Shown here in pieces: positions 8,635 to 47,053 of a stretch of DNA of 64,000 nucleotides. Both the position numbers and the translations under genes were made by a program. The stretch's first letter is position 1; the number at the start of each line of letters is the position of its first letter. Source of the stretch: Gemmatimonadota bacterium (lineage in GTDB: Bacteria > Gemmatimonadota > Gemmatimonadetes > Longimicrobiales > Gaopeijiaceae); contig SLBA01000103.1 of the NCBI GenBank assembly GCA_007126575.1, positions 1-64,000 on the forward strand, written 5' to 3'. Under the pieces are notes generated by a model. It saw only the letters and a list, made by a program, of their open reading frames with translations, searched no databases and had not been told where the DNA came from.

Positions 8635-9642
8635 TCAACGACTTCGTTCGATCGCGTAGGCGATCGCGGCGCGCAGGGCATCCATCGCCTCGCCCTCGGC
8701 CCCGACCTCATCGAGGGCCGCCTCGGCCTGATCGGCGTAGAATCGAGCCCGGCCCCGCGCGTACTCGAGCCCCCCGGACTCCCGCACGATGGCGACGATC
8801 TCTTCGATCTCGTCGTCGGAGGGGTCGAGCAGGGTGAAGAAACTCCGAATTCGATCCCGCCCCGCGTCGTCGACCACCCGCAGGGTTTCCACCAGGGGAA
8901 GTGTCACTTTTCGCTCCCGGAGATCGTGCCCGACGGGCTTTCCGGTGACCGCCTCGGAGCCCTCGTAGTCAAGAAGGTCGTCGGCCACCTGGAAGGCCAT
9001 CCCCAGCGCCTGGCCATAGCGCCGAAAGGCCTCCCTCCACCGCTCCACCCCCACCACCGCCCCCATTTCGCACGCGGCCGCCATGAGCGACGCCGTCTTG
9101 CACGAAATCAGACGCGTGTAGTCATCTTCATCGAAATCGAGAGCGTCGTAGGAGGTCAGCTGTCGCAGCTCCCCGACGCTCATCTCGTTGGAAGCCCTGG
9201 CCAGCGACCGGATCGCCTCGAGGCGTCCGAGTCGAGCCAGCTCCATCACCGAGCGGGAGTACAGGTAGTCGCCGGTGATCACGGCGACCTGATGCGACCA
9301 CAGGTGATTCACCGTCGGCATGCCCCTGCGGAGGACCGAATGATCCACCGCATCGTCGTGGACGAGCGTCGCCAGATGAACGAGCTCCACCACGGCCGCG
9401 AGGGAAACCGCGTCGTCGTGAGGCCTCCCACCCACTTCGTTGACGAGCAGAAGAAGGGTCGGTCGAAAGAACTTCCCCCGCATCCGGAGGAGAACGTCGT
9501 TGACCTCCTCGATCATGTCGAAGTCGCTCAGGACGATTCGTTGAATCTCGTCCATCACCCCGTCAAGCCGAGCCTTGACCGGCTCCTGAATCGGAACCAG
9601 GCGGGAGGTGGCGGAGGGCGGCGCAGTGATGGCGTGACTCAT
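8635..9642 (-). CDS. Polyprenyl diphosphate synthase (trans-type)
   Basis: Chain-elongating prenyltransferase that builds the long isoprenoid tail of menaquinone or ubiquinone from IPP. Both aspartate-rich motifs are present: DDAVD (96-100) and DDLLD (221-225), with GKFFRP (about 56-61) and KTASL (182-186) as expected. I start at ATG 9642 (335 aa), the usual length; the frame is open to 9828. Chain length cannot be read safely from the sequence. No menaquinone ring-pathway genes are in the window. Confidence 0.92.
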   Translation of the reverse strand: MSHAITAPPSATSRLVPIQEPVKARLDGVMDEIQRIVLSDFDMIEEVNDVLLRMRGKFFRPTLLLLVNEVGGRPHDDAVSLAAVVELVHLATLVHDDAVDHSVLRRGMPTVNHLWSHQVAVITGDYLYSRSVMELARLGRLEAIRSLARASNEMSVGELRQLTSYDALDFDEDDYTRLISCKTASLMAAACEMGAVVGVERWREAFRRYGQALGMAFQVADDLLDYEGSEAVTGKPVGHDLRERKVTLPLVETLRVVDDAGRDRIRSFFTLLDPSDDEIEEIVAIVRESGGLEYARGRARFYADQAEAALDEVGAEGEAMDALRAAIAYAIERSR

Positions 9643-9682
9643 GATTCCGACCGGGGCGGAGGATAAACCGGGAGCAGGAACG

Positions 9683-11698
9683 TCATCGAAGCCCCCTGAG
9701 ACGCTCCGTGACATCCTTGAAGTTGATATCGAGGGAGAAGACCTTCTCATAGAACTCCCTCGCATCGTCGGGGTTCCCGGCCCGCTCGTGCGCCGCGGCC
9801 AGGTAGTAGTAGATCCCGAGCAGGTCATCCTCGATCGGACGCGAGAGGTCGAGCGCCCGGGAGAGAACCCGGACGGCCATCTTCGGCTCGTCCTTGTCGA
9901 GGAAACACTGCCCCATCATCTCGATCGCGCCCAGATGGGTGGGCTGCGCACGCAGCGCCGCCTGAAACATCGAGATCGCCTCGTCCAGGAGCCCCATCTC
10001 CTTGTAGGCGGCCCCAAGATCGTACCGTGAGCTGCTGTCCTCATGATCCAGATTCCGGGCCACCTTCTTCTTGAAGTCCGAGAGCATGCTCGCGAAATCC
10101 ATCCCTTCATCGCCACTCGGTTCGTGTCCGGGCGCGACCCAGCGCGTGGTCCCGACCTCGTCGTCGTCGAGGATCATCGCCCCGAGGTCGACGAAGCTCT
10201 CGGTCGGCGGGGTCTCCGGCTCGGGGGTGGAAGCCGGGCCCGGCTCCTCCGAACCGTCGTCGGGGGCTGCGAAGGAGTCCTCGACTTCGAGTTCGATCTC
10301 CTGCTCCTCAGACGCCTCGAGATCGACCGGATCCGCGTCGAAGCCGACCGGCTCGACCGAGCGCCCGAGGGCGTCGAGGGCGACCGGGTGGCTCGGGTCC
10401 AGCTGAAGCACCTGCTCGTATACCGATGCGGCCTTCTCCATCGAGCCCGAGCGTGCCAGCGCACCGGCGAGTCCCACGAAGGCGGAGAGGAGGAGGCCCC
10501 GGTCGTTCGTTCGATAGGCGAACTCCACCAGCTCCTCGTGCCGATCGGGGTCGTCGGGGTCGGCCGCGATGCGCTCCCGGATTCCTTCGAGGGAGTCCAC
10601 CTCTCCCTCATCGGCGGCGGTGTCCTCCGCCGTCCCGAAGTCGAACTCGTCGTCGGCGCCCAGAAGGGGGAGCGGGTCCGCGGATTCCGGAACCTCGTCC
10701 TCGTCCTCCTCGGCGTCCAGCTCCTCGGTCGCCACCTCGCCGGGCTCGATCGCGCCGAACTCGAAGTCCCCTCCGGTGGCCTCGAACCCCTCTACCGGAG
10801 ACGCCCCCGGCTCCTCCTCGACCTCGTCCTCCTCGATCCCGGTCGACTCCACTCCGAGTTCCGGCTCCGGCGCGTCATCGGCCAGGTGAAACTCGTCGAA
10901 CTCCTCTTCGAAGTCGCCGCCGAAATCGTCGGCGAGCCCTTCCGCGGGCTCCACATCGATCACCTCGTCCTCGGAGAGGCCCGTCTCGCCGAGCCCCGTG
11001 GACTCGAAGGCGTCCAGCCCGGTGAGGTCGACGTCCTGCTCATCGAGCCCGTCGCTCGTCTCTTCGGGAGGCGCATCCGCAGCCGGAAATCGCACCCCGG
11101 GATCGATCGACCGGATCCGCTCCGCGAGTTCTTCGGAGCGATCGGCGGCATCGGCCCGCTCCAGGACCTTCCAGGCATGCAGCAGATGAGGGATCCCTTC
11201 GTCCTCGCGCTCCGACGAGACCAGCTGCTCCCCGAGGAAGACCCGGGTCTCGACGTCGTCGGGGATCAGGGTGACCAGTTCGGCCAACGCCTCGAGCGCC
11301 ACCTCGCGCTCGCCTCGAGCCTCCATCATTTCGGCATACGTCAGATAGCTCTGGCGCGCGTCGACCACGAACCCCTGCTTCGCCCGAATCTCCCCCATGC
11401 GACGGAAGATCTCGGGACGACCGGGCGCGTTGCGGATCATCTTGCGGCAGATGGCGATCGCATTGTTGGGCAGCTCCGACTCCAGGTAGAGGTCGATCGC
11501 CTCGTCGTACGTCTCGATCGCGGCATCCAGGTCACCGTTGCGCACCTGGAGGTCCGCCATCCGGTTCAGGAGGGCGATGTCCGGCTCCTCGGCCTCCTCG
11601 AGCGCGTCGGCGGCTCGCCGGTAGAGGGAGAGGGCCTTGCCCCATTCCTCGGCCAGCTCGTGCTCTCTCGCCTGCTGCTTCAGGGTGTCGATCTTCAT
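9683..11698 (-). CDS. Large acidic TPR protein
   Basis: 671 residues, function unknown. TPR helices fill residues 1-170 (EEWGKALSLYRRAADALEEA, GDLDAAIETYDEAIDLY), then comes a very acidic linker (about 190-370), a middle TPR unit (about 370-445), a second acidic linker with LDLEASEEQEIELEVED-like sequence, and three C-terminal TPRs (about 556-671). No signal peptide. The ATG at 11698 overlaps the formimidoyltransferase stop as ATGA, so the two are coupled. The TPR / acidic linker / TPR plan matches the protein at 3947-5596; they may be paralogous scaffold proteins. Confidence 0.8.
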   Translation of the reverse strand: MKIDTLKQQAREHELAEEWGKALSLYRRAADALEEAEEPDIALLNRMADLQVRNGDLDAAIETYDEAIDLYLESELPNNAIAICRKMIRNAPGRPEIFRRMGEIRAKQGFVVDARQSYLTYAEMMEARGEREVALEALAELVTLIPDDVETRVFLGEQLVSSEREDEGIPHLLHAWKVLERADAADRSEELAERIRSIDPGVRFPAADAPPEETSDGLDEQDVDLTGLDAFESTGLGETGLSEDEVIDVEPAEGLADDFGGDFEEEFDEFHLADDAPEPELGVESTGIEEDEVEEEPGASPVEGFEATGGDFEFGAIEPGEVATEELDAEEDEDEVPESADPLPLLGADDEFDFGTAEDTAADEGEVDSLEGIRERIAADPDDPDRHEELVEFAYRTNDRGLLLSAFVGLAGALARSGSMEKAASVYEQVLQLDPSHPVALDALGRSVEPVGFDADPVDLEASEEQEIELEVEDSFAAPDDGSEEPGPASTPEPETPPTESFVDLGAMILDDDEVGTTRWVAPGHEPSGDEGMDFASMLSDFKKKVARNLDHEDSSSRYDLGAAYKEMGLLDEAISMFQAALRAQPTHLGAIEMMGQCFLDKDEPKMAVRVLSRALDLSRPIEDDLLGIYYYLAAAHERAGNPDDAREFYEKVFSLDINFKDVTERLRGLR

Positions 11699-12750
11699 CG
11701 GGTTTCGTCCCGCTCCCCGGAGCCCGAAAGCTCCTCGGAGAGTCGTGTGAGTTCGTCGTTCAGTGCGGTCGGAATCGCGTCGACCGAAGCTCGCGCAGCC
11801 TCGAGCACCCGCTCGGCAGCCGCTTTCAGGCGTGCAACGCGATGCTCCGCCACCCGAGAGGATAGAACCTTTGGGGGTGTCCGGTCCAGCGTCGCCAGCC
11901 GATCGGCACCAGCCCGGGCAACCAGTTCGTCGGGGCACATGCCGATGATTTCCGTTCCCGCCAGCCGCCCCCCTTCGGCCTCGACCCTCTCCTCGATCCG
12001 TCGGAACACCGCGAAGGCATCGCGCCGACCGGCGTCCTCCAGGTTCATCGAGATCTGCATCCGACCCTGATGGGGCAGCTCCAGCCCGAGCGTTCGAAGC
12101 CCCGGGATGCCTCCCCGGCTGCCCCGCAGCTCGGCCGCGATCCGCTTCAGCGCGCCCGCATCCAGTCCGTCGACATCGATGTTCCAGGCCAGAAGCAGGG
12201 GCCTCGCGCCGACGCAGGTGACCCCCGCGGTCGGGTGTACCCGGATCCCCGGAGTGAGGTCGGGGCCCGGGTGCCGGGTCCTTCCCGATCCCGGGTGCGC
12301 GTCGGCCACCAGAGCCTCGAATCCCCCTCTGCGAAGGTCGGCCAGTCGTCGCCCCGGAGGCGTCGATGCTTCGCCGTAGAAATATATGGGGACCCCCACC
12401 TCGTCGGCGATGCGGGCCCCCACGCGACGGGCCGAGCGGATCGCGTCCGACATGTCGAGTCCGGAGATCGGAACGAGGGGGAGGACGTCGAGGGCGCCGA
12501 TTCGAGGGTGGACCCCTTCGTGGTCACGCAGGTCGATCGCACCCACCGCCCATCGGGCCAGCGCGACCGCCGCCGACTCCACGTGAGCTGGCGAGCCGAT
12601 GAAGGTGACCACCGAACGGTTGTGGTCCGGATCCGAGGAGTAGTCGAGGACTTCCGCACCCTCCCCGGCCACGAGCTCGACGCATCGCTCCAGCAACGCC
12701 GTATCCCGCCCGAAACTGAGGTTGGGCACCGCCTCCAGGACGGGCATCAT
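11695..12750 (-). CDS. Glutamate formimidoyltransferase (FTCD N-terminal type)
   Basis: 351 residues matching the formiminotransferase half of vertebrate FTCD, which moves the formimino group of N-formimidoyl-glutamate to tetrahydrofolate in histidine breakdown. Landmarks are EAVPNLSFGRD at the start, DPDHNRSVVTFIG (41-53) and DHEGVHPRIGALDVLP. The cyclodeaminase half is absent; instead there is a helical tail of about 50 residues. No other hut gene is nearby. Start is ATG 12750 (or the next codon). There is no Shine-Dalgarno, and a TATACT box ends nine bases before the ATG, so translation is probably leaderless. Confidence 0.88.
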   Translation of the reverse strand: MMPVLEAVPNLSFGRDTALLERCVELVAGEGAEVLDYSSDPDHNRSVVTFIGSPAHVESAAVALARWAVGAIDLRDHEGVHPRIGALDVLPLVPISGLDMSDAIRSARRVGARIADEVGVPIYFYGEASTPPGRRLADLRRGGFEALVADAHPGSGRTRHPGPDLTPGIRVHPTAGVTCVGARPLLLAWNIDVDGLDAGALKRIAAELRGSRGGIPGLRTLGLELPHQGRMQISMNLEDAGRRDAFAVFRRIEERVEAEGGRLAGTEIIGMCPDELVARAGADRLATLDRTPPKVLSSRVAEHRVARLKAAAERVLEAARASVDAIPTALNDELTRLSEELSGSGERDETR

Positions 12751-12758
12751 AGGCCCGG

Positions 12759-12764
12759 AGTATA
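12759..12764 (-). promoter_or_regulatory. -10 box giving a leaderless formimidoyltransferase mRNA
   Basis: TATACT on the minus strand (12764-12759) matches five of six consensus bases. Eight bases separate it from the ATG at 12750, so the transcript should begin at or next to the start codon. The -35 region is poor (TTGTGC at 17 bases). Confidence 0.5.
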
Positions 12765-12836
12765 GCGTCCGGGCGAAGTGGGCACAACAAGATCATGCGC
12801 CTGACCGCACCCCCGGCACCGGCACCCCCGCTTCGC

Positions 12837-13997
12837 TCAACGCGCCGAGCGCTCCCCGACCGTCGAGAGCGCCGGGTTCCCGGGCTGAAGTTGAAACGCC
12901 CAGTCGAAGAGCGCGATCGCCCCGTCCTGCGCAAAGCCGACATGGGTGACCCGTATGACACCGTAGTTCCACTGCCCGCCACTCGCGGGAACGCGCAGGA
13001 CATAGCTGTATCCCGGGGTCATCGCGAGATCCCCCTGGTGGTAGCCTCCACCCGGGGCGAACCGGAGGTCGGTGCACCCGGCATCGGCCGCCGGGCCGCA
13101 TCGAAGGGCCGTGGTGGCGAAGGCCTCGCCGTGCACTTCGACCCCCGGGCCGGGCACGAGCCACCAGCCCTCGCTGTCGACTTCCATTCGGAAGTGCCGA
13201 TCGCCGCTGGCGCCCGGAACGATCGGATCGGTCGCCTCGGCCTCCTGGAAGCGGAACCCGGAAAGCGCCGGGCGATCCTCGAAGGCGTAGATGAACTCTC
13301 CGTGAAAGTCGGGTCGCGGCGTTCCCTCGGCCAGGGCGCTGCCACCACTCTCATGGCCGAGATCATCGACCGAGGTCACGAAGTATCCGTAGGTGCTCCC
13401 ATTTTCGACCAGCAGGTCCAGGAACCCCTCGGAGTCGGTCTCGCCGAGAAAAACGACCTGGCCGTCCCCGCCCTCGAGGTACACCCGGTAGAAGGCGAAG
13501 TCGTCGGCCGATCTAGCGAGGTCATCCCACGTCAGGAAGATCGCGTTGTCGAGGGGGACCGCGTCGATGCTCCCCGGTGCGGGGGGAGCCACCGGCTGCG
13601 GAACGAAGACCTCGACGGCGAAGTCGCTCGCCGTCTCCGACCCGCTCCGTGTGTCGAACGAAGCCACGTAATATTCGTAGCTTCGGCCCGGACTCAGGTT
13701 GATGTCGGAGTAGGAGCACAGGCCGTCGCGGCAATTGCTCACCTCGGCGACCAGGTAGTAGTCCCGATCCGTGGTCCGCTTCGCGTAGACGCGAAAGGCT
13801 TCCCCGTCCCACCCCGAGTGCAGCTCCCACTGGAGGTTCACGGCCTGCGCGTAGTACCAGACCTGCAGATCGACCGGTGGGGCCGGACCGGCCCCCGACC
13901 ACGTGCTTCCGACCTCGTCACATCCGGCCGCGACGATGGCGAGTGCGGGGAGCAGGATCGCCCTGCGGATTCGACGGGTGAAGCTCGGGCTCAACAT
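12837..13997 (-). CDS. Secreted lipoprotein with fibronectin-III-like domains
   Basis: 386 residues, function unknown. A basic N-terminus and hydrophobic stretch end in AAGC (Cys about 25), a lipoprotein signal. Two segments look like FN3 folds: one begins PPVDLQVWYYAQAVNLQWE, the next PPAPGSIDAVPLDNAIFLTW; both contain the Tyr-rich YEYYVASFD / YGYFVTSVD strand. The C-terminal third has several Trp and Tyr residues and four Cys pairs are possible in the whole protein. The ATG at 13997 has GGAG seven bases upstream. Probably surface or periplasmic; similar proteins in this type of genome are unannotated. Confidence 0.7.
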   Translation of the reverse strand: MLSPSFTRRIRRAILLPALAIVAAGCDEVGSTWSGAGPAPPVDLQVWYYAQAVNLQWELHSGWDGEAFRVYAKRTTDRDYYLVAEVSNCRDGLCSYSDINLSPGRSYEYYVASFDTRSGSETASDFAVEVFVPQPVAPPAPGSIDAVPLDNAIFLTWDDLARSADDFAFYRVYLEGGDGQVVFLGETDSEGFLDLLVENGSTYGYFVTSVDDLGHESGGSALAEGTPRPDFHGEFIYAFEDRPALSGFRFQEAEATDPIVPGASGDRHFRMEVDSEGWWLVPGPGVEVHGEAFATTALRCGPAADAGCTDLRFAPGGGYHQGDLAMTPGYSYVLRVPASGGQWNYGVIRVTHVGFAQDGAIALFDWAFQLQPGNPALSTVGERSAR

Positions 13998-14050
13998 GGT
14001 TCGACTCCTTCGAAGCGGGCGAACTCGCACGGGGACTCCTGGTCGGCCTT

Positions 14051-14075
14051 CCGGCGGAAGCCCTCTGTCCGCCGG
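14051..14075. other. Stem-loop in the leader of the FN3 lipoprotein gene
   Basis: CCGGCGGA (14051-14058) and TCCGCCGG (14068-14075) form a perfect 8-bp stem with a 9-base loop, 54 to 78 bases upstream of the ATG at 13997. There is no T run. It could affect RNA stability or translation. Confidence 0.4.
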
Positions 14076-14170
14076 TCGCCCTTCCGACGTCTCAGTGCAG
14101 GAGGCATGCCGCGATGGAATCGGCCCATCGCCGCCTGCGACAACGCTTCGCGGGAGGTGGACCCGGGCGA

Positions 14171-14192
14171 GGTGTCCTCGGTTCAGGACACC
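14171..14192. terminator. Possible terminator hairpin downstream of lptD
   Basis: GGTGTCCT (14171-14178) and AGGACACC (14185-14192) form a perfect 8-bp stem with a 6-base loop about 50 bases after the lptD stop. It lacks a clear T run, so termination may be partial or it may protect the mRNA end. Confidence 0.45.
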
Positions 14193-14244
14193 CCGCGTCC
14201 GCGAACGGGCTCAGCCGACCGCGGCCGAACGCTGGTGCCGCCGA

Positions 14245-17200
14245 TCAGAACCCAGCGGGCAGGCCCTCTCCGGGACCACCGAGTCGCCCGTCGACGTTGC
14301 GCTGCTCGTAGTCGAAGCGCAGATCGCGATTCGCCCTCAGCGAAACGTCGAACTGGAAGCTCCAGTTCCCACTGGCCGTCTGCCGGAAGCCGAACGAGGC
14401 TTCCCACTCGTGAAGGTCCCGCCGCAGCCGTAGAATGTGGTCGTTGAAGCGGGCCTCCTCGACGTCGTACGTCGTCTGCCAGGTTGCATCCCAGTTCTGG
14501 GTGGGCTGGAAGGAGAGCGAGGCGGAGACCATCTGCGAGCGCAGCGCCGTCGACCCGGGCTGCTGAGCCTGAGTTCCCGCCGCCGAGCGAGGGCGCCGCA
14601 ACGAGTACGAGAGCCGGGCGTCCCACCCCTGTCGTCGGGGTCCCGCGGCGGCGGGGCCTGCCGAAGAGCCCGGCATGACCCGATTCTCGTCGAACCCGTC
14701 GGATCCACCGAAGGGGTCGTCCTCGTCGTCGAACCCACCGGAGGCACCCTCGGGCGCTCCCGGCTGACCCGGTCCGGGACCGGCGTCGGACGGCTCCGAA
14801 GCTTCGATGCCGAGGACACTCGCCACCCTGCGGACGATCCCTGAGCGATGGTCGAGCGAGAACCCCACCGAGAGCTGCTCGAGGTGCGGGGCGAACTGCC
14901 GGAGCTGCCCCTCCGATCCCACCGCCGGCTCCTCGAAGAGCGAGTGTGCGAAGGAGAGGCTGAGTCCCCGCAGGTAGTCGGAGCGAATCGTGTTGGTAAG
15001 GCGAGTCGTCGTGAACCCGTCGATGAACCGACCGGTCGAGTCGGCCTGGACGATGTCGTACGACACCGCCGAGGTGTTCAGGCCGAGCAGGGTCACCACC
15101 CGGGACTGCGGGGCCCGTCGCGGCCCGTCGTCATCGTCGTCGGGGAGGTCTCCGACTCCTTCCATCTCGTCGGTCTCCGCGTCCTCCGAGAGAAGGGGGA
15201 GCGGGTCGTCGACATCCGCGTCGGGATCGTCCTCTCCGGGGGGCGGGGCCGCCGCGGGATCCAGCGCATCCGCGGGCTCGGTGGCACCCGGCCGCGCAGG
15301 CTCGGGCTGCCGCTCCTCTTCCTGGACCCGCGCCTCGAAGGTCTGGTTCAGGGTGAGGCTGACCTGGTTCTGGACCCTGAGATTCCTGGATCCGAACACG
15401 CGATCCTGCAGCGCGGTCGGCTCGGTCGCCGGAGAGTAGCTGTAGTTGATTTGCGGAGACAGCTTGTGACGGATGGCCTCGAAGCCCGCGAACCCCGGAT
15501 AGAACCCGAAGATCTCGGTCCGTGCGCCCACCCCGAGGCTGACCCGCGTGGGGGCCGTCACGAAGGCGGTCGCGTCGGGAATGCTGTCGACGCGCGCGAG
15601 GTTGCCACTCAGGCTCAGCGACGGGGTGATCGTGCTGTTGCCCATGAGACGCTGCTGGTATCCCAGCGAGACATTCCAGTCGGCCGTCGCGTCGCTGAAG
15701 GCCACGAGCTCTCCGGTCTGCGGGTGCACGCTAGAAAACGACGACCCCGGCTGTCCGGGCGCGAACCCGGAGCCCGGGCCGAATCCCGGCAGGACCGCCA
15801 TCCCGTCCGCGCCCGGCTCGAGCAGCTCCGCCGGCACCTCGGGGAAGACGGTCTCGCGGAAGTTCAACTGGCTCGAGAGGCTGAGATTGCCCAGCCCGAC
15901 CGATCCGCGGGCGCGAGCCTGCGTCCGGGTGTTGTCGGCCCGGTTGAAGCGGAAGAGCGTATCGGGCTGGACGGGAAACTCGCGCACGTCGCGACTGAAG
16001 CTGGTCGACCCGCTCAGCGAGACATTGTTGTACCAGCTGGCCTGCTGGGGCGGCGCCGAGAAGAGGGTGCGGGTGTTCAGCGAGAGCGAGGCGTTCGGCA
16101 GGGTCATCTCGAGCCGGTCGTCGCTCAGAAACTGCTGGCGACGGGCCGAGACCGAGAGGCTGCCCCATCCGAACCGATGCTGTAGACCGGCATTCGAGTC
16201 GATCGACGAGGTGAGCTCCCGGGGGTCGAGCGAGGTCTGCCGCACGAGACGAGTGTTCGTGACGTAGTTGCCCGAGAGGGAGACGCGGGTGCGCTCGGTG
16301 GCCTCCCAGTTGTTCCGGGTCGAGATGGCGAAATCGCGGGCTCCGGTATCACGCCAGAAGCGGCGCATCGAGACATCACCCTGCAGGAACTGCCGGGCCC
16401 ACCGGTACCGCAGTGACCCCGTGAGGGCCGTATACTGGTTCGACCACCAGTCCATCGCCAGCGATGCGTCGGAGTAGTCCGACATCGCCCAGAAGAATCC
16501 CACGTTCGAGATCCGTCGATTGTATCCGGCCGAGGTACGCACGATGTCGTTGACCGAGAACCGGGGCGTCAGGATCCCGCTCGACCGCCCCGACTGCAGC
16601 GGCTGCGCCATGAAGGGGAGCCAGGCCACCGGGACATCGTCGAAGTAGAGCCGAACCGAGCGGGCGACGAGGACCCGATCCGCCACGATCTTCATCGCCT
16701 CGGCCTCGAAGTACGAGTGGGGTGGATCGTGATCACACGAGGTGAACCGGGTACTGCTTCCGAACAGGAGGCCGTCCTGCACGGAATCGAGGTTTCCGCG
16801 AACGATCCAGTTTCCTGCTCCCTCGGAATACGTCGTCTCTGCGTCCAGCGCGGTGGCCCTGCGGGTCGGGACATCGTAGACCATCGACGAGCTTCGGACC
16901 GGATCCCCGCGCTGTGAGGTGAGGAGGGTGGAGCCGATCGTGCGCACGCGCCCCGAGGCTTCGTCGTAGACGATCGAGGAGTCCGCCTCGACCTCGACTC
17001 CCTCTCCCGCGAACCGGGCCGCATTCGCTTCCGACCCGGTCAGGGTCAGGCGCCGGTCGAGCGCAGTGAAGTCCGCCCTGGCGCCGGAGTAGGTGGCGAT
17101 GTTGTAGCCCGACAGACGCGACAGCGCCTGCATGACCGAGTCGGCCCCCGAGGGGAGCCGCACCTGAGACGAGGTCCGGCCCGACTCCTGGCCACCGGCT

Positions 17201-18930: not shown

Positions 18931-19737
18931 TCACCCGATCTGCTGAAGCAGCTGACGCGCCAGATCGGCGACTCCCTCGTCCCCCCAGGTGTTCACGACG
19001 CGCTCGAGGTACTCCCGGGCCCGCTCGGACTCACCGGCCTCGTAGTAGAGTCGACCGACCCTGTACAGCGCATGGGGCACGCGCTCCGCCGAGGGATGAT
19101 ACTCCTGAACCCTCAGGAAGGCTTCGATCGCATCCTCGGGCTCACCCTGCTCGACCAGGATTTCGCCGATGTAGAACCGGGCCTCCGGGGTCAGGGCATG
19201 ATTGGGATACCGCTCGATCAGCTCGTCGAAGCCGATCCGGGCGGCCGTGTAGGAACGCCGCCTGAACTGGTCGAGCGACTCGTCGTACAGCTCCGCCGCC
19301 TCGCCCGTCTGCTCCGGCCCGGAGAACCCACCTCCGGCGGGGCCGGGGGCCGCCGGCCGGCTCGCCAGCTGGTCTCGCATCGCCGCGAGCTCCTGCTGGG
19401 AGAGTCCGGTCAGTTCCCGCAGCAGCTCCACTTCGGTCTGAAGGGTCGCGATCCGCTGCAGCAGCGTACCGCGCATGTCCGCCTGCGCGGACTTGAGGGT
19501 CCGCACGGAGTCGTTCAGAGCGCGCTGCTCCTGCCGCAACTCCTGGATCAACTCCCGTTGTTCGTCGTTCTGGACCCGGATGTCGGCACCCAGGTCCCGG
19601 ATGTCGGCCTTGGTCGCGCACCCCGAGGCGAAAAGGGCCAGGGCAAGGGCCAGGAACAGACGGACCCCTCCCCCGCTCCTCCGACCTCGCGGGTGGATCC
19701 ACGTGAAGGCGGTGGGGGGGGGAGGGGTCTCAGCCAT
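18931..19737 (-). CDS. cpoB: Tol-Pal system coordinator CpoB (YbgF-like)
   Basis: 268 residues. After a 24-residue polar extension there is a hydrophobic signal ending FASGC (Cys40), so it may be a lipoprotein here. Residues 50-120 form a heptad-like coiled coil, and 140-268 hold TPR units (DESLDQFRRRSYTAARIGFD, ARFYIGEILVEQG). CpoB links Tol-Pal constriction to peptidoglycan synthesis in E. coli. A GGAG lies eight bases before the ATG at 19737. It is the last gene of the tolQ-R-A-B-pal-cpoB set. Confidence 0.9.
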   Translation of the reverse strand: MAETPPPPTAFTWIHPRGRRSGGGVRLFLALALALFASGCATKADIRDLGADIRVQNDEQRELIQELRQEQRALNDSVRTLKSAQADMRGTLLQRIATLQTEVELLRELTGLSQQELAAMRDQLASRPAAPGPAGGGFSGPEQTGEAAELYDESLDQFRRRSYTAARIGFDELIERYPNHALTPEARFYIGEILVEQGEPEDAIEAFLRVQEYHPSAERVPHALYRVGRLYYEAGESERAREYLERVVNTWGDEGVADLARQLLQQIG

Positions 19738-27246: not shown

Positions 27247-28212
27247 TCAGGGCATGGCCCGTGTCAGGACCACGGTCATCCCCGGCCGGATCGCACTCGG
27301 AAGTCGGGACTGAAGGATGCGGAGGGTTGCCGTACCATCGCGGAGCCCCACCACCTGGAAGTCTCCGGCGTCCGCACCCTCCCATCCATCGGCCGCACCT
27401 GCCATGGCGCGAAACTCGTCACCGACCGCGAGGCCATCGGCCGCGCCGGCGTCGATGAAGAGCCGGTCTCCGGGGAGATACAGCTCCTTCCTCTCCTCGA
27501 ATGCGAGAACACGTGCCGAGAACCGACTCGGGGTATCGCCGGGGTATACGCCGGCCTCGAGGGGGAAGGTCCGCATGGGTACGATCTGGTTTCCGAGCTC
27601 GACCTTGGAGTAGTCGCGCACCAGCCGGGCCACCGCCCCGGAGTCATCGACCCGTTGCACCTCGAGGACCCCGGTGGGGATCATCACCTGCCCGACATGC
27701 TCGATCTTTCGCGAGGCGCGCACCGCCAGGAGCTGGTCTCCCGGCTGCACCGAAACGCCCTCGTCGAGGTGCAGGCGCACATCGTCGTAGGGGAGCACCG
27801 TGCTGCGACCCAGCCGCACGTCCTGGCCACCCGAGAAGTAGCGGACCTCTCCCAGCGATTCCGAGGGTGCGTCGGGATGGACCAGCCAGCTCGCCGCCTG
27901 GAAGGTCGCCGGGGAGAGGGTCGGAACCTCGGAGGGGGGAACCAGGAGCACCTGGCTGCCCTCGGCGACCTGGCTGGCCCGGACGCCGTAGAAGAGCGTG
28001 CGCTCTCCCGTGTAGGGAGGGGTCGCCTGGGGGACGAAGGGTCGCCGCCGCAGGAGAGCCCGTCGCCCCTCGGGAGTCGTCAGATCCAGGGTGTCGAGAG
28101 CGATCCCGGTCAGGGTCGCTCCGGGAGCGGGATCCTGGGCATGGGCCGGTGAGGCTCCCCCGACCGCGAGGAGGATCACGAAGGATGCGAGTACCGCCGT
28201 CGACCTGAGCAT
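27247..28212 (-). CDS. Secreted protein resembling the SH3-like C-terminal part of LysM proteins
   Basis: 321 residues, not assigned to a pathway. ATG 28212 begins a clear signal peptide ending SPAHAQ; an upstream ATG (28266) lies at the predicted start of transcription and is unlikely. The middle and C-terminal parts (LHLDEGVSVQPGDQLLAV; YLPGDRLFIDAGAADGLAVGDEF; then GTATLRI) resemble small beta-barrel modules found after LysM domains, but no LysM motif is visible. It heads the hemX-hemA-epimerase-tol gene run. Confidence 0.6.
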   Translation of the reverse strand: MLRSTAVLASFVILLAVGGASPAHAQDPAPGATLTGIALDTLDLTTPEGRRALLRRRPFVPQATPPYTGERTLFYGVRASQVAEGSQVLLVPPSEVPTLSPATFQAASWLVHPDAPSESLGEVRYFSGGQDVRLGRSTVLPYDDVRLHLDEGVSVQPGDQLLAVRASRKIEHVGQVMIPTGVLEVQRVDDSGAVARLVRDYSKVELGNQIVPMRTFPLEAGVYPGDTPSRFSARVLAFEERKELYLPGDRLFIDAGAADGLAVGDEFRAMAGAADGWEGADAGDFQVVGLRDGTATLRILQSRLPSAIRPGMTVVLTRAMP

Positions 28213-28271
28213 GACGGCTCCCGGGTCTGAAATCGAAACAGGAGGCGGGCAGAGGTGCACCGCCATCGTCG

Positions 28272-45071: not shown

Positions 45072-46016
45072 TCAGAACCGGCCCCCGCCTCCACTCGGGA
45101 ATCGGATCGCGTCGATCCTCTCTCTGGCTCTCTCGCGAAGCGCCTGTCCTTCGCCGAGGTCGTCACTGATCACCCGCTCGAAGGCGTTGATGGCCGCGGT
45201 GTTCTGACCGCGATCCGCCAGGAGTTCCCCGGTCCGGAACCAGGCCTGGGCGAGTCGGTTCCGCGGCTCCCCCAGGTCGATCGTGGTCCGGAAGTATCGA
45301 AGCGCGTCGTCGGTATCGCCCCGGTCCCGGGCCTCGACCGCCAGAAGGTAGGAGCAGTTGCCCACGTGCCAGTCCACCTCGGTCCTGCGCGCCGCAGAGA
45401 CCTCGGGGCGCACCTGCTCGAAGAAGGCGAGCGCCCGCTCGCAGTCCCCGAGTTCCTGGTGCGCGAGCGCCATCTCCATGATCACTTCGGGGGTGCTCCC
45501 CGTCGCTTCGGCCAGTGCCTTCTGATAGAAGGGGAGCGCCTTGCCGTACTGGGCGTTGCGAGAGAAGTGTCGGGCGAGGGGGAGTGCCAGTCCGGTCAGG
45601 CTCACACCGGGCCGGAGCTGGATCGCGGCCTCGACGGCGGCCGCCGCCGCGATTCCGTCCCGCCGCTCCACTGCGATCCGAGCAACCCTCAGCAGGTCCG
45701 ACGCCGCGATGTCGGCAACCGACGGGTCCTGTCGGATCGCCGTCTCGTAGTGACGCTGGGCCTCGTCGATCCGACCCACCCGCGCGTATGCCTGCGCCGC
45801 TCGAGTCAGCGTCTCCACGTCGTCTCTCCCCTGCCGAAGGGCGAGGCGATACTCCGCGAGCGCCTCGGGGAAGTCCCCCTGGGCGAAGGCGGCATCGCCC
45901 CGGTGCACGGCCCCTTCCTCAGAGCCGGCGGCGGTACAGGCCGCCGAGCCGACCAGCAGGAGGAGGACGCCGAGGAGCGTCGTACGTCGATCAGAGAGAA
46001 GGTTCATCGTGCGCAT
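45072..46016 (-). CDS. TPR lipoprotein
   Basis: 314 residues, function unknown. The signal ends GSAAC (Cys about 27). The rest is TPR (GDAAFAQGDFPEALAEYRLAL, AQAYARVGRIDEAQRHYETA, YQKALAEATG, LAHQELGDCERALAFFEQV). The ATG at 46016 has no Shine-Dalgarno, and a -10 box TATATT ends six bases before it, so translation is probably leaderless. An internal ATG (46007) is also possible. It lies between the decarboxylase and the aminotransferase in the sugar block. Confidence 0.72.
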   Translation of the reverse strand: MRTMNLLSDRRTTLLGVLLLLVGSAACTAAGSEEGAVHRGDAAFAQGDFPEALAEYRLALRQGRDDVETLTRAAQAYARVGRIDEAQRHYETAIRQDPSVADIAASDLLRVARIAVERRDGIAAAAAVEAAIQLRPGVSLTGLALPLARHFSRNAQYGKALPFYQKALAEATGSTPEVIMEMALAHQELGDCERALAFFEQVRPEVSAARRTEVDWHVGNCSYLLAVEARDRGDTDDALRYFRTTIDLGEPRNRLAQAWFRTGELLADRGQNTAAINAFERVISDDLGEGQALRERARERIDAIRFPSGGGGRF

Positions 46017-46087: not shown

Positions 46088-47053
46088 TCAGGGCAGCGTC
46101 CGTGCCTGGGCGTCATCCGTCTCGATCAGACCCCGGAAGTAGGGGATCGTCCGGATCAGGCCCTCCCTGAGCCCGGTCTCCGGCTCCCAGTCCAGGATCC
46201 TGCGGGCGAGGGTGATATCGGGCTGCCGAACCTTGGGATCATCTTCGGGGAGGGGAAGCCGCTCGACCGGCGACGAGCTTCCGGTGAGTTCTATCACCGC
46301 CTCCGCCAGGTCCCGGATCGTGACCTCGGCGGGGTTGCCCACATTCACCGGCTCCACCCGGTTCGGGTGATGAAAGAGTCGATAGATCCCCTCGACCTCG
46401 TCGTCGACGAAACAGAACGACCGGGTCTGGGAGCCGTCGCCGTAGATCGTGATCGGATCGCCGCGCAGCGCCTGAACCAGAAAATTCGAGACGACCCGCC
46501 CATCGGCCGCCCGCATCCTCGGGCCGTAGGTGTTGAAGATCCGGACGATGCGGGTCTCGAGACCGTGGTGCCGGTGGTACGCCATCGTCATGGCCTCGGC
46601 GAAGCGCTTGGCCTCGTCGTAGACACCGCGAACTCCGACCGGGTTCACGTGCCCCCAGTAGCTCTCGGGCTGCGGGTGAATCTGCGGGTCCCCATAGACC
46701 TCCGACGTCGAGGCGAGCAGGTAGCGGGCCCCGTGGAGCTTGGCCAGGCCGAGGGTGTTGTGCGTCCCCAGGCTTCCCACCTTGAGGGTGGGGATCGGAT
46801 GTTCCAGGTAGTCGACGGGGCTCGCGGGAGAGGCGAAGTGCAGCACGCCGTCGACCGTGTCCGCGACCCGCAGCGGGATCGAGATGTCGTGGTCCACGAA
46901 GGCGAATCGGTCCTCGGCGGACAGCGACTCGATGTTGGCCGGAGAGCCGGTGATCAGGTTGTCGACCCCGATCACCGAATGCCCATCGGCCAGGAAGCGC
47001 TTCGAAAGGTGGTACCCGAGGAACCCTGCGGCCCCCGTGATGAGAACTCTCAT
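46088..47053 (-). CDS. UDP-glucuronate decarboxylase (UDP-xylose synthase)
   Basis: 321 residues, extended SDR. The NAD motif is GAAGFLG (7-13); STSEVYGDP (115-123) and Tyr145-x3-Lys149 (YDEAK) are the active site. [15 protein letters not shown] and [11 protein letters not shown] are hallmarks of UXS. It turns UDP-glucuronate into UDP-xylose. The gene before it makes UDP-glucuronate, so the pair form a UDP-xylose pathway. Confidence 0.93.

Follow-up and report, generated by a model that had tools for sequence, protein, structure and literature searches.

A conserved -10 box adjoining the start codon of ftcD points to a leaderless ftcD-TPR mRNA in Gemmatimonadota

Leaderless mRNAs are described as being read from a 5' AUG with the help of the initiator tRNA (PMC10783764, PMC12340547). 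Genes of this kind were reported to carry a TANNNT motif about 12 bases before their starts, counted from the first T (Zheng et al. 2011, PMC3160421). The text of a later study describes, by experiment, -10-motif genes of Deinococcus-Thermus in which a -10 region adjoining the ORF drives leaderless mRNA, an arrangement found at about 30% of ORFs, and includes, as a supplementary figure, a survey of common phyla (PMC12340547). A word search for "Gemmatimona" in the main text of PMC3160421 gave no occurrence, and an "Other Bacteria" row exists there. Searches by title returned no study of leaderless or Shine-Dalgarno (SD) starts naming Gemmatimonadota, a weak absence given that few subscription journals were covered, and, with the same coverage, none of a leaderless formiminotransferase or dihydrouridine synthase mRNA.

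Here we describe a probable start of this type in a Gemmatimonadota contig, analyzed as a stretch of 64,000 nucleotides (the window). A first-pass annotation had pointed to a TATACT box shortly before an ATGATG with no SD sequence, and had proposed that a formimidoyltransferase gene and a TPR gene share a leaderless start; box and lack of SD were both confirmed on re-reading the sequence (Table 1). None of AGGA, GGAG, GAGG, AAGG, or GGTG occurs within 20 bases upstream of the ftcD ATG. Given the base frequencies, TATACT would turn up by chance in about 2 of 10,000 cases when five positions ahead of a single start are considered. No Rfam element matched in the window at gathering score, and there was no near match in the plasmid set.

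Table 1. Features of the ftcD start region and of the two genes behind it (window coordinates)
Feature	Position	Strand	Details
-35-like hexamer TTGTGC	12787-12782	minus	17-base spacer to the TATACT box
-10 box TATACT	12764-12759	minus	first T at -14 relative to the start
Box-to-start gap CCGGGCCT	12758-12751	minus	8 bases; predicted 0-2 transcribed bases at most
Start codon ATG1 of ftcD	12750-12748	minus	predicted mRNA 5' end; ATGATG from 12750
ftcD, glutamate formimidoyltransferase-domain protein, 351 aa	11695-12750	minus	Pfam FTCD_N + FTCD
TPR-repeat gene	9683-11698	minus	Pfam TPR families
Overlap of ftcD stop and TPR start, ATGA	11698-11695	minus	sequence

On this layout and the comparisons below, we consider it highly probable that ftcD and the TPR gene form a leaderless bicistronic mRNA made from a sigma-70-type promoter, TTGTGC-17-TATACT, with a start predicted within two bases of the ATG at 12750. 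RNA polymerase would start on A12750 or no more than two bases from it, and ribosomes with fMet-tRNA would begin directly on the 5' AUG of the ftcD message. The TPR gene would then probably be read by termination-reinitiation at the ATGA; among 44 loci examined, 34 had a TPR hit and 25 had the same -4 overlap. As for which ATG is used, orthologs have M, I, V, L, A, T, E, or another residue at codon 2, while ATG1 and the proximity of its box are kept. Since codon 2 varies and ATG1 is constant, ATG1 is the start and the second ATG of ATGATG codon 2; the second ATG was thus ruled out as the start.

We then compared the start region across relatives, with an ftcD match in 106 genomes of the same family (f1) and six of its sister family (f2). 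Seventy-three ftcD loci were examined (69 from f1 and 4 from f2), and 66 were scored by script; the unscored ones were L093, L155, L159, L162, L166, L169, and L182, with no box seen by eye in L093 and L169. A box was defined as TANNNT with its first T 10 to 16 bases upstream of a candidate start (a gap of 4 to 10), and both ATG and GTG were accepted as candidates. This gap was used for ftcD, the shifted ftcD scans, the tatC control, and families f4, f5, f6, and f9, and a gap of 5 to 9 for the second control and for the three other genes discussed below. A box preceded a candidate start in 53 of the 66 scorable orthologs, representing 28 of 32 genera; one of the 53 (L091) was boxed only before a GTG. 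When the scan was displaced 40 to 112 bases upstream, 0 to 3 of 66 were boxed, so that the box is conserved beyond chance. In the same family, tatC was boxed in 3 of 28 scored loci (30 loci, 2 unscored), and a TPR protein gene at 18934-19737, the second control, in 0 of 27 (30 loci, 3 unscored), with an SD in 16 of these 27.

The geometry of the box was also well kept. The gap between box and ATG measured 5 to 9 bases in all 52 aligned orthologs anchored on an ATG (mode 6), in a scan that allowed 4 to 10, which, like the gap of 8 at our locus, would place +1 on or next to the start. The most frequent box was TATCTT (18 of 52), and in 23 of 52 a TTG stood 16 to 18 bases upstream of the box, versus 0 and 2 at shifted positions. 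A conserved SD in relatives had been named in the first-pass annotation as a finding that would speak against its reading; just 7 of the 66 orthologs had a 4-mer SD ahead of any candidate start, and only 2 of these belong to the 53 boxed ones. The box was absent in 13 of 66 orthologs, namely, all nine scored loci of genus g3 and one each in g7, g16, g20, and g36. Because the layout recurs in most relatives, it looks like a stable trait and not an accident. Only 4 of the 20 FTCD loci taken from families f4, f5, f6, and f9 were boxed, most matches there sitting within a longer open frame, which suggests a trait of the ftcD of this order and not of every FTCD gene of the class. Outside Gemmatimonadota, six ftcD loci (L005 to L010) are too few for a judgement: L006 (Planctomycetota) has TATAAT 7 bases before an ATG, L007 (Armatimonadota) has TATACT 9 bases before one, and no clear box was seen in the other four, whose starts are uncertain.

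Close relatives offered a view of the promoter with and without its gene. The nearest named FTCD relative came from a Gemmatimonadales bacterium contig (88% identity). In G002, a genome of the same genus, a single difference was found in the 51 bases running from TGATCTTGTTG through ATGATG, with the preceding ~28 bases clearly diverged; the ftcD coding sequence in this genome is conserved to a degree similar to that of the promoter, and this comparison alone is therefore modest evidence. G001, also of the same genus, has no FTCD match and keeps the neighbor genes in order. It retains TTGTTGTGC and CGCTATACTCCGG, and its alignment with our promoter, with a single difference in the final part, reaches the CCT that stands directly before our ATG. 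There is no ATG at that place in G001; the TPR gene starts ~113 bases further on, and a short match to the 3' end of ftcD lies just before it. In G081 and G082, which likewise lack an FTCD match, the stretch ahead of the TPR gene has TTGTGC followed after 17 or 18 bases by TATGTT or TATCTT; TTGTGC is retained in all three genomes. G082 has an ATG 10 bases after the box, which makes it a less clean case than G001. The three loci contain no N. The fourth and last FTCD-less genome examined at the locus, G086, gave a stretch that ended short of the TPR gene. Separately, by eye, L012, L019, L174, and L176 have in common a AACCCTTG- or AATCCTTG-like stretch about 10 to 15 bases before the -35, present at ftcD loci as well as at ftcD-less ones; it is perhaps a second element.

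The simplest reading of these loci would be that ftcD was lost in G001, G081, and G082 and its promoter retained, with the wide presence of ftcD pointing to loss rather than gain. A promoter kept without ftcD suggests that the promoter function of the box does not depend on the start codon, and we judge it very likely that the TATACT box is a genuine promoter. Together with the presence of the box in 28 of 32 genera, this retention in an ftcD-less relative lends support to the leaderless start first proposed for the pair.

Other explanations of the same region were weighed against these observations. The stop codon of the upstream gene lies at 12837-12839, just 86 bases from the ftcD ATG, and the sole terminator-like site found in between (12810-12795) is weak, so that ftcD could mainly be translated, independently of an SD, from read-through of the LptD/unnamed-gene unit, the box being a minor internal promoter. 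We regard this as improbable: an SD near the start is rare in the relatives, the block conserved in G002 begins just before the -35, and the promoter sequence is kept in the three ftcD-less genomes. A closer variant of the preferred reading has transcription starting at least 3 bases upstream, giving a nearly leaderless mRNA with a short leader and ordinary 30S initiation. Our own 8-base gap, at the long end of the 5-to-9 range, and the pyrimidines directly 5' of the ftcD ATG would suit such a start. The usual -10 to +1 distance, however, puts +1 on the A of the ATG when the gap is 6 or 7, and these are the modal gaps in relatives, which makes a short leader very improbable.

A chance TANNNT match, with the real start or promoter situated elsewhere, deserves mention since shifted windows gave an average of 4.6 among 238 genes of this genome at six positions and a simple scanner found no promoter in 9000-15000. 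The scanner missed the ftcD promoter because TTGTGC matches TTGACA at three of six bases and four are required, and the displaced ftcD scans fell so far short of the 53 boxed orthologs that coincidence seems an exceedingly improbable account.

The first-pass annotation had also called for a genome-wide count of TANNNT boxes before start codons. We used a sample of 310 kb from the same genome (the window plus 20 stretches) with 238 usable called genes, their starts set by a crude caller. A plain TANNNT count at the six positions gave 9 of 238, against the shifted mean of 4.6 (maximum 9), and a second plain count gave 15, against a shifted mean of 8.8 (maximum 13). These counts are weak because the caller misplaces several of the starts concerned, putting them, e.g., 21, 36, and 54 bases past an ATG that has a box. 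Samples of 100 kb from four relatives and 111 kb from G002 gave no clear excess over the shifted means either, with TANNNT before 1 of 91 called starts in G002 (shifted mean, 1.2), 2 of 76 in G046 (0.9), 1 of 65 in G035 (1.7), 1 of 71 in G044 (1.5), and 3 of 60 in G040 (1.6). In a scoring with a matrix of the ftcD boxes, restricted to ATG candidates, 8 starts scored at least 9 versus a shifted mean of 0.6, and 10 versus 2.8 passed a threshold of 6. The TATACT of our ftcD scores 6.8 and falls outside the 8, and the modal TATCTT scores 12.6. The leaderless layout would thus concern a minority of genes, roughly 3% in this genome.

SD sequences were less general than first thought. Among called starts, a 4-mer SD was present before 31 of 65 in the window and before 97 of 238 in the sample, where the shifted mean is 46.9 of 238 (a chance level of ~20%); the original statement that most other genes here have an SD was therefore too strong, and while the absence of an SD at ftcD holds, its contrast with other genes is weaker than claimed. 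Elsewhere in the window, all on the minus strand, TATATT stands 5 bases before the ATG at 46016 of a TPR-repeat protein gene (45072-46016), another likely leaderless start; TAGGAT stands 6 bases before the ATG at 47053 of an NAD-dependent epimerase gene (46088-47053), where an SD-like 4-mer is also present; and TATCTT stands 5 bases before the ATG at 28266 of a gene whose protein has no Pfam match (27247-28266).

Three further genes, encoding a Dus protein (tRNA dihydrouridine synthase, PF01207), an M50 protease, and an RsmI-like protein (PF00590, with RsmI_C below cut-off), were followed in relatives. All three were chosen for a box in this genome, and for this reason only the relatives count as evidence. 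Of 50 Dus loci, 30 in the family and 20 outside (L221 to L250 and L311 to L330), 45 had a box next to an ATG or GTG. Inside the family, 27 of 30 were boxed; outside, the box was found in 16 of 16 loci scored by script. A second script, run on the four others, found the f4 locus boxed, the f8 locus unboxed, and one of the two f11 loci boxed, a doubtful case within a T-rich stretch. Over families f2 to f6, all 17 loci were boxed. Seven genomes of family f7 gave no Dus match. By eye, TTG or CTTCAC often lies upstream at the Dus loci. Of the M50 protease loci that were scored, 24 of 29 were boxed next to the ATG (30 loci, L251 to L280, with L279 unscored), a count in which our own locus, L251, figures as a miss though boxed, having been mis-anchored by the script. 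The RsmI-like gene was boxed in 10 of 20 scored loci (30 loci; 8 were unscored without an anchor motif and 2 without a start). Judging from these comparisons, the leaderless layout, although a minority one, appears to persist gene by gene, in ftcD, Dus, M50, and partly RsmI-like.

The product of ftcD matches both transferase domains of glutamate formimidoyltransferase, the N-terminal part of FTCD, above the Pfam cut-offs (FTCD_N, 2.6e-51 and 174.3 bits versus 27; FTCD, 1.2e-10 and 41.9 bits versus 24). The C-terminal cyclodeaminase domain of bifunctional FTCD was not found in the 351 aa at E 0.001, leaving the two transferase domains only. PMC3223725, citing Jeanguenin et al. 2010, describes, with complementation data, how formiminotransferases take the place of 5-formyl-THF cycloligase. 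A search of 117 genomes of the family detected cycloligase (PF01812) in nine; eight of these have no FTCD match (G001, G068, G069, G070, G072, G081, G082, and G086), and G117 has both. Among the 15 FTCD-less genomes of the family, 7 show no cycloligase either, all less than 90% complete, in a table that counts four family genomes left out of the cycloligase search as lacking it. The exchange is also seen within the genus, where G000 and G002 have FTCD and G001 has cycloligase. Given this nearly complementary presence and the published precedent, the most likely role of the ftcD product is to remove 5-formyl-THF, as a substitute for cycloligase. No clear leaderless start was seen by eye in the cycloligase genes of the nine genomes.

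Whereas counts of leaderless genes are usually made genome by genome, single genes can here be tracked, boxed at the ATG across dozens of genera, and the layout of a box next to the ATG offers a start-codon rule for the annotation of Gemmatimonadota. In the ftcD-less genomes, the promoter stays before the TPR gene as a leadered promoter. A near-identical promoter in leaderless and leadered form thus provides natural operon pairs that would allow a direct test of what leaderlessness does. A more speculative idea, which we judge unlikely, is that Gemmatimonadia keep a small fixed leaderless set because leaderless initiation regulates it, through the state of the 70S ribosome and formyl-Met-tRNA and not through SD competition, with ftcD, whose product would feed formyl-folate back into the pool used to formylate Met-tRNA, sensing its own end product via its start codon. 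The proposed set would comprise ftcD in one order, Dus in the majority of the families tested, and the M50 protease and partly the RsmI-like gene in one family.

Taken together, these comparisons indicate that the layout at the start of ftcD is real and well conserved, of an ordinary kind (a probable leaderless gene) but with an unusually clear comparative record. Like the genes described in the text of Zheng et al. 2011 (PMC3160421), ftcD has a TANNNT box (first T at -14 here) and no SD in a high-GC genome; unlike in that survey, the share of such genes here is low (~3%) and single genes are tracked across genera. With the Deinococcus-Thermus genes, as the text of PMC12340547 presents them, it shares a -10 region that adjoins the ORF, whereas the layout involves a few per cent of genes here instead of ~30% of ORFs and is predicted from sequence. 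Finally, as in the system of Jeanguenin et al. 2010 (as cited in PMC3223725), an FTCD-domain protein occurs in genomes without cycloligase; the exchange proposed here from gene content differs in being seen within one family and one genus.
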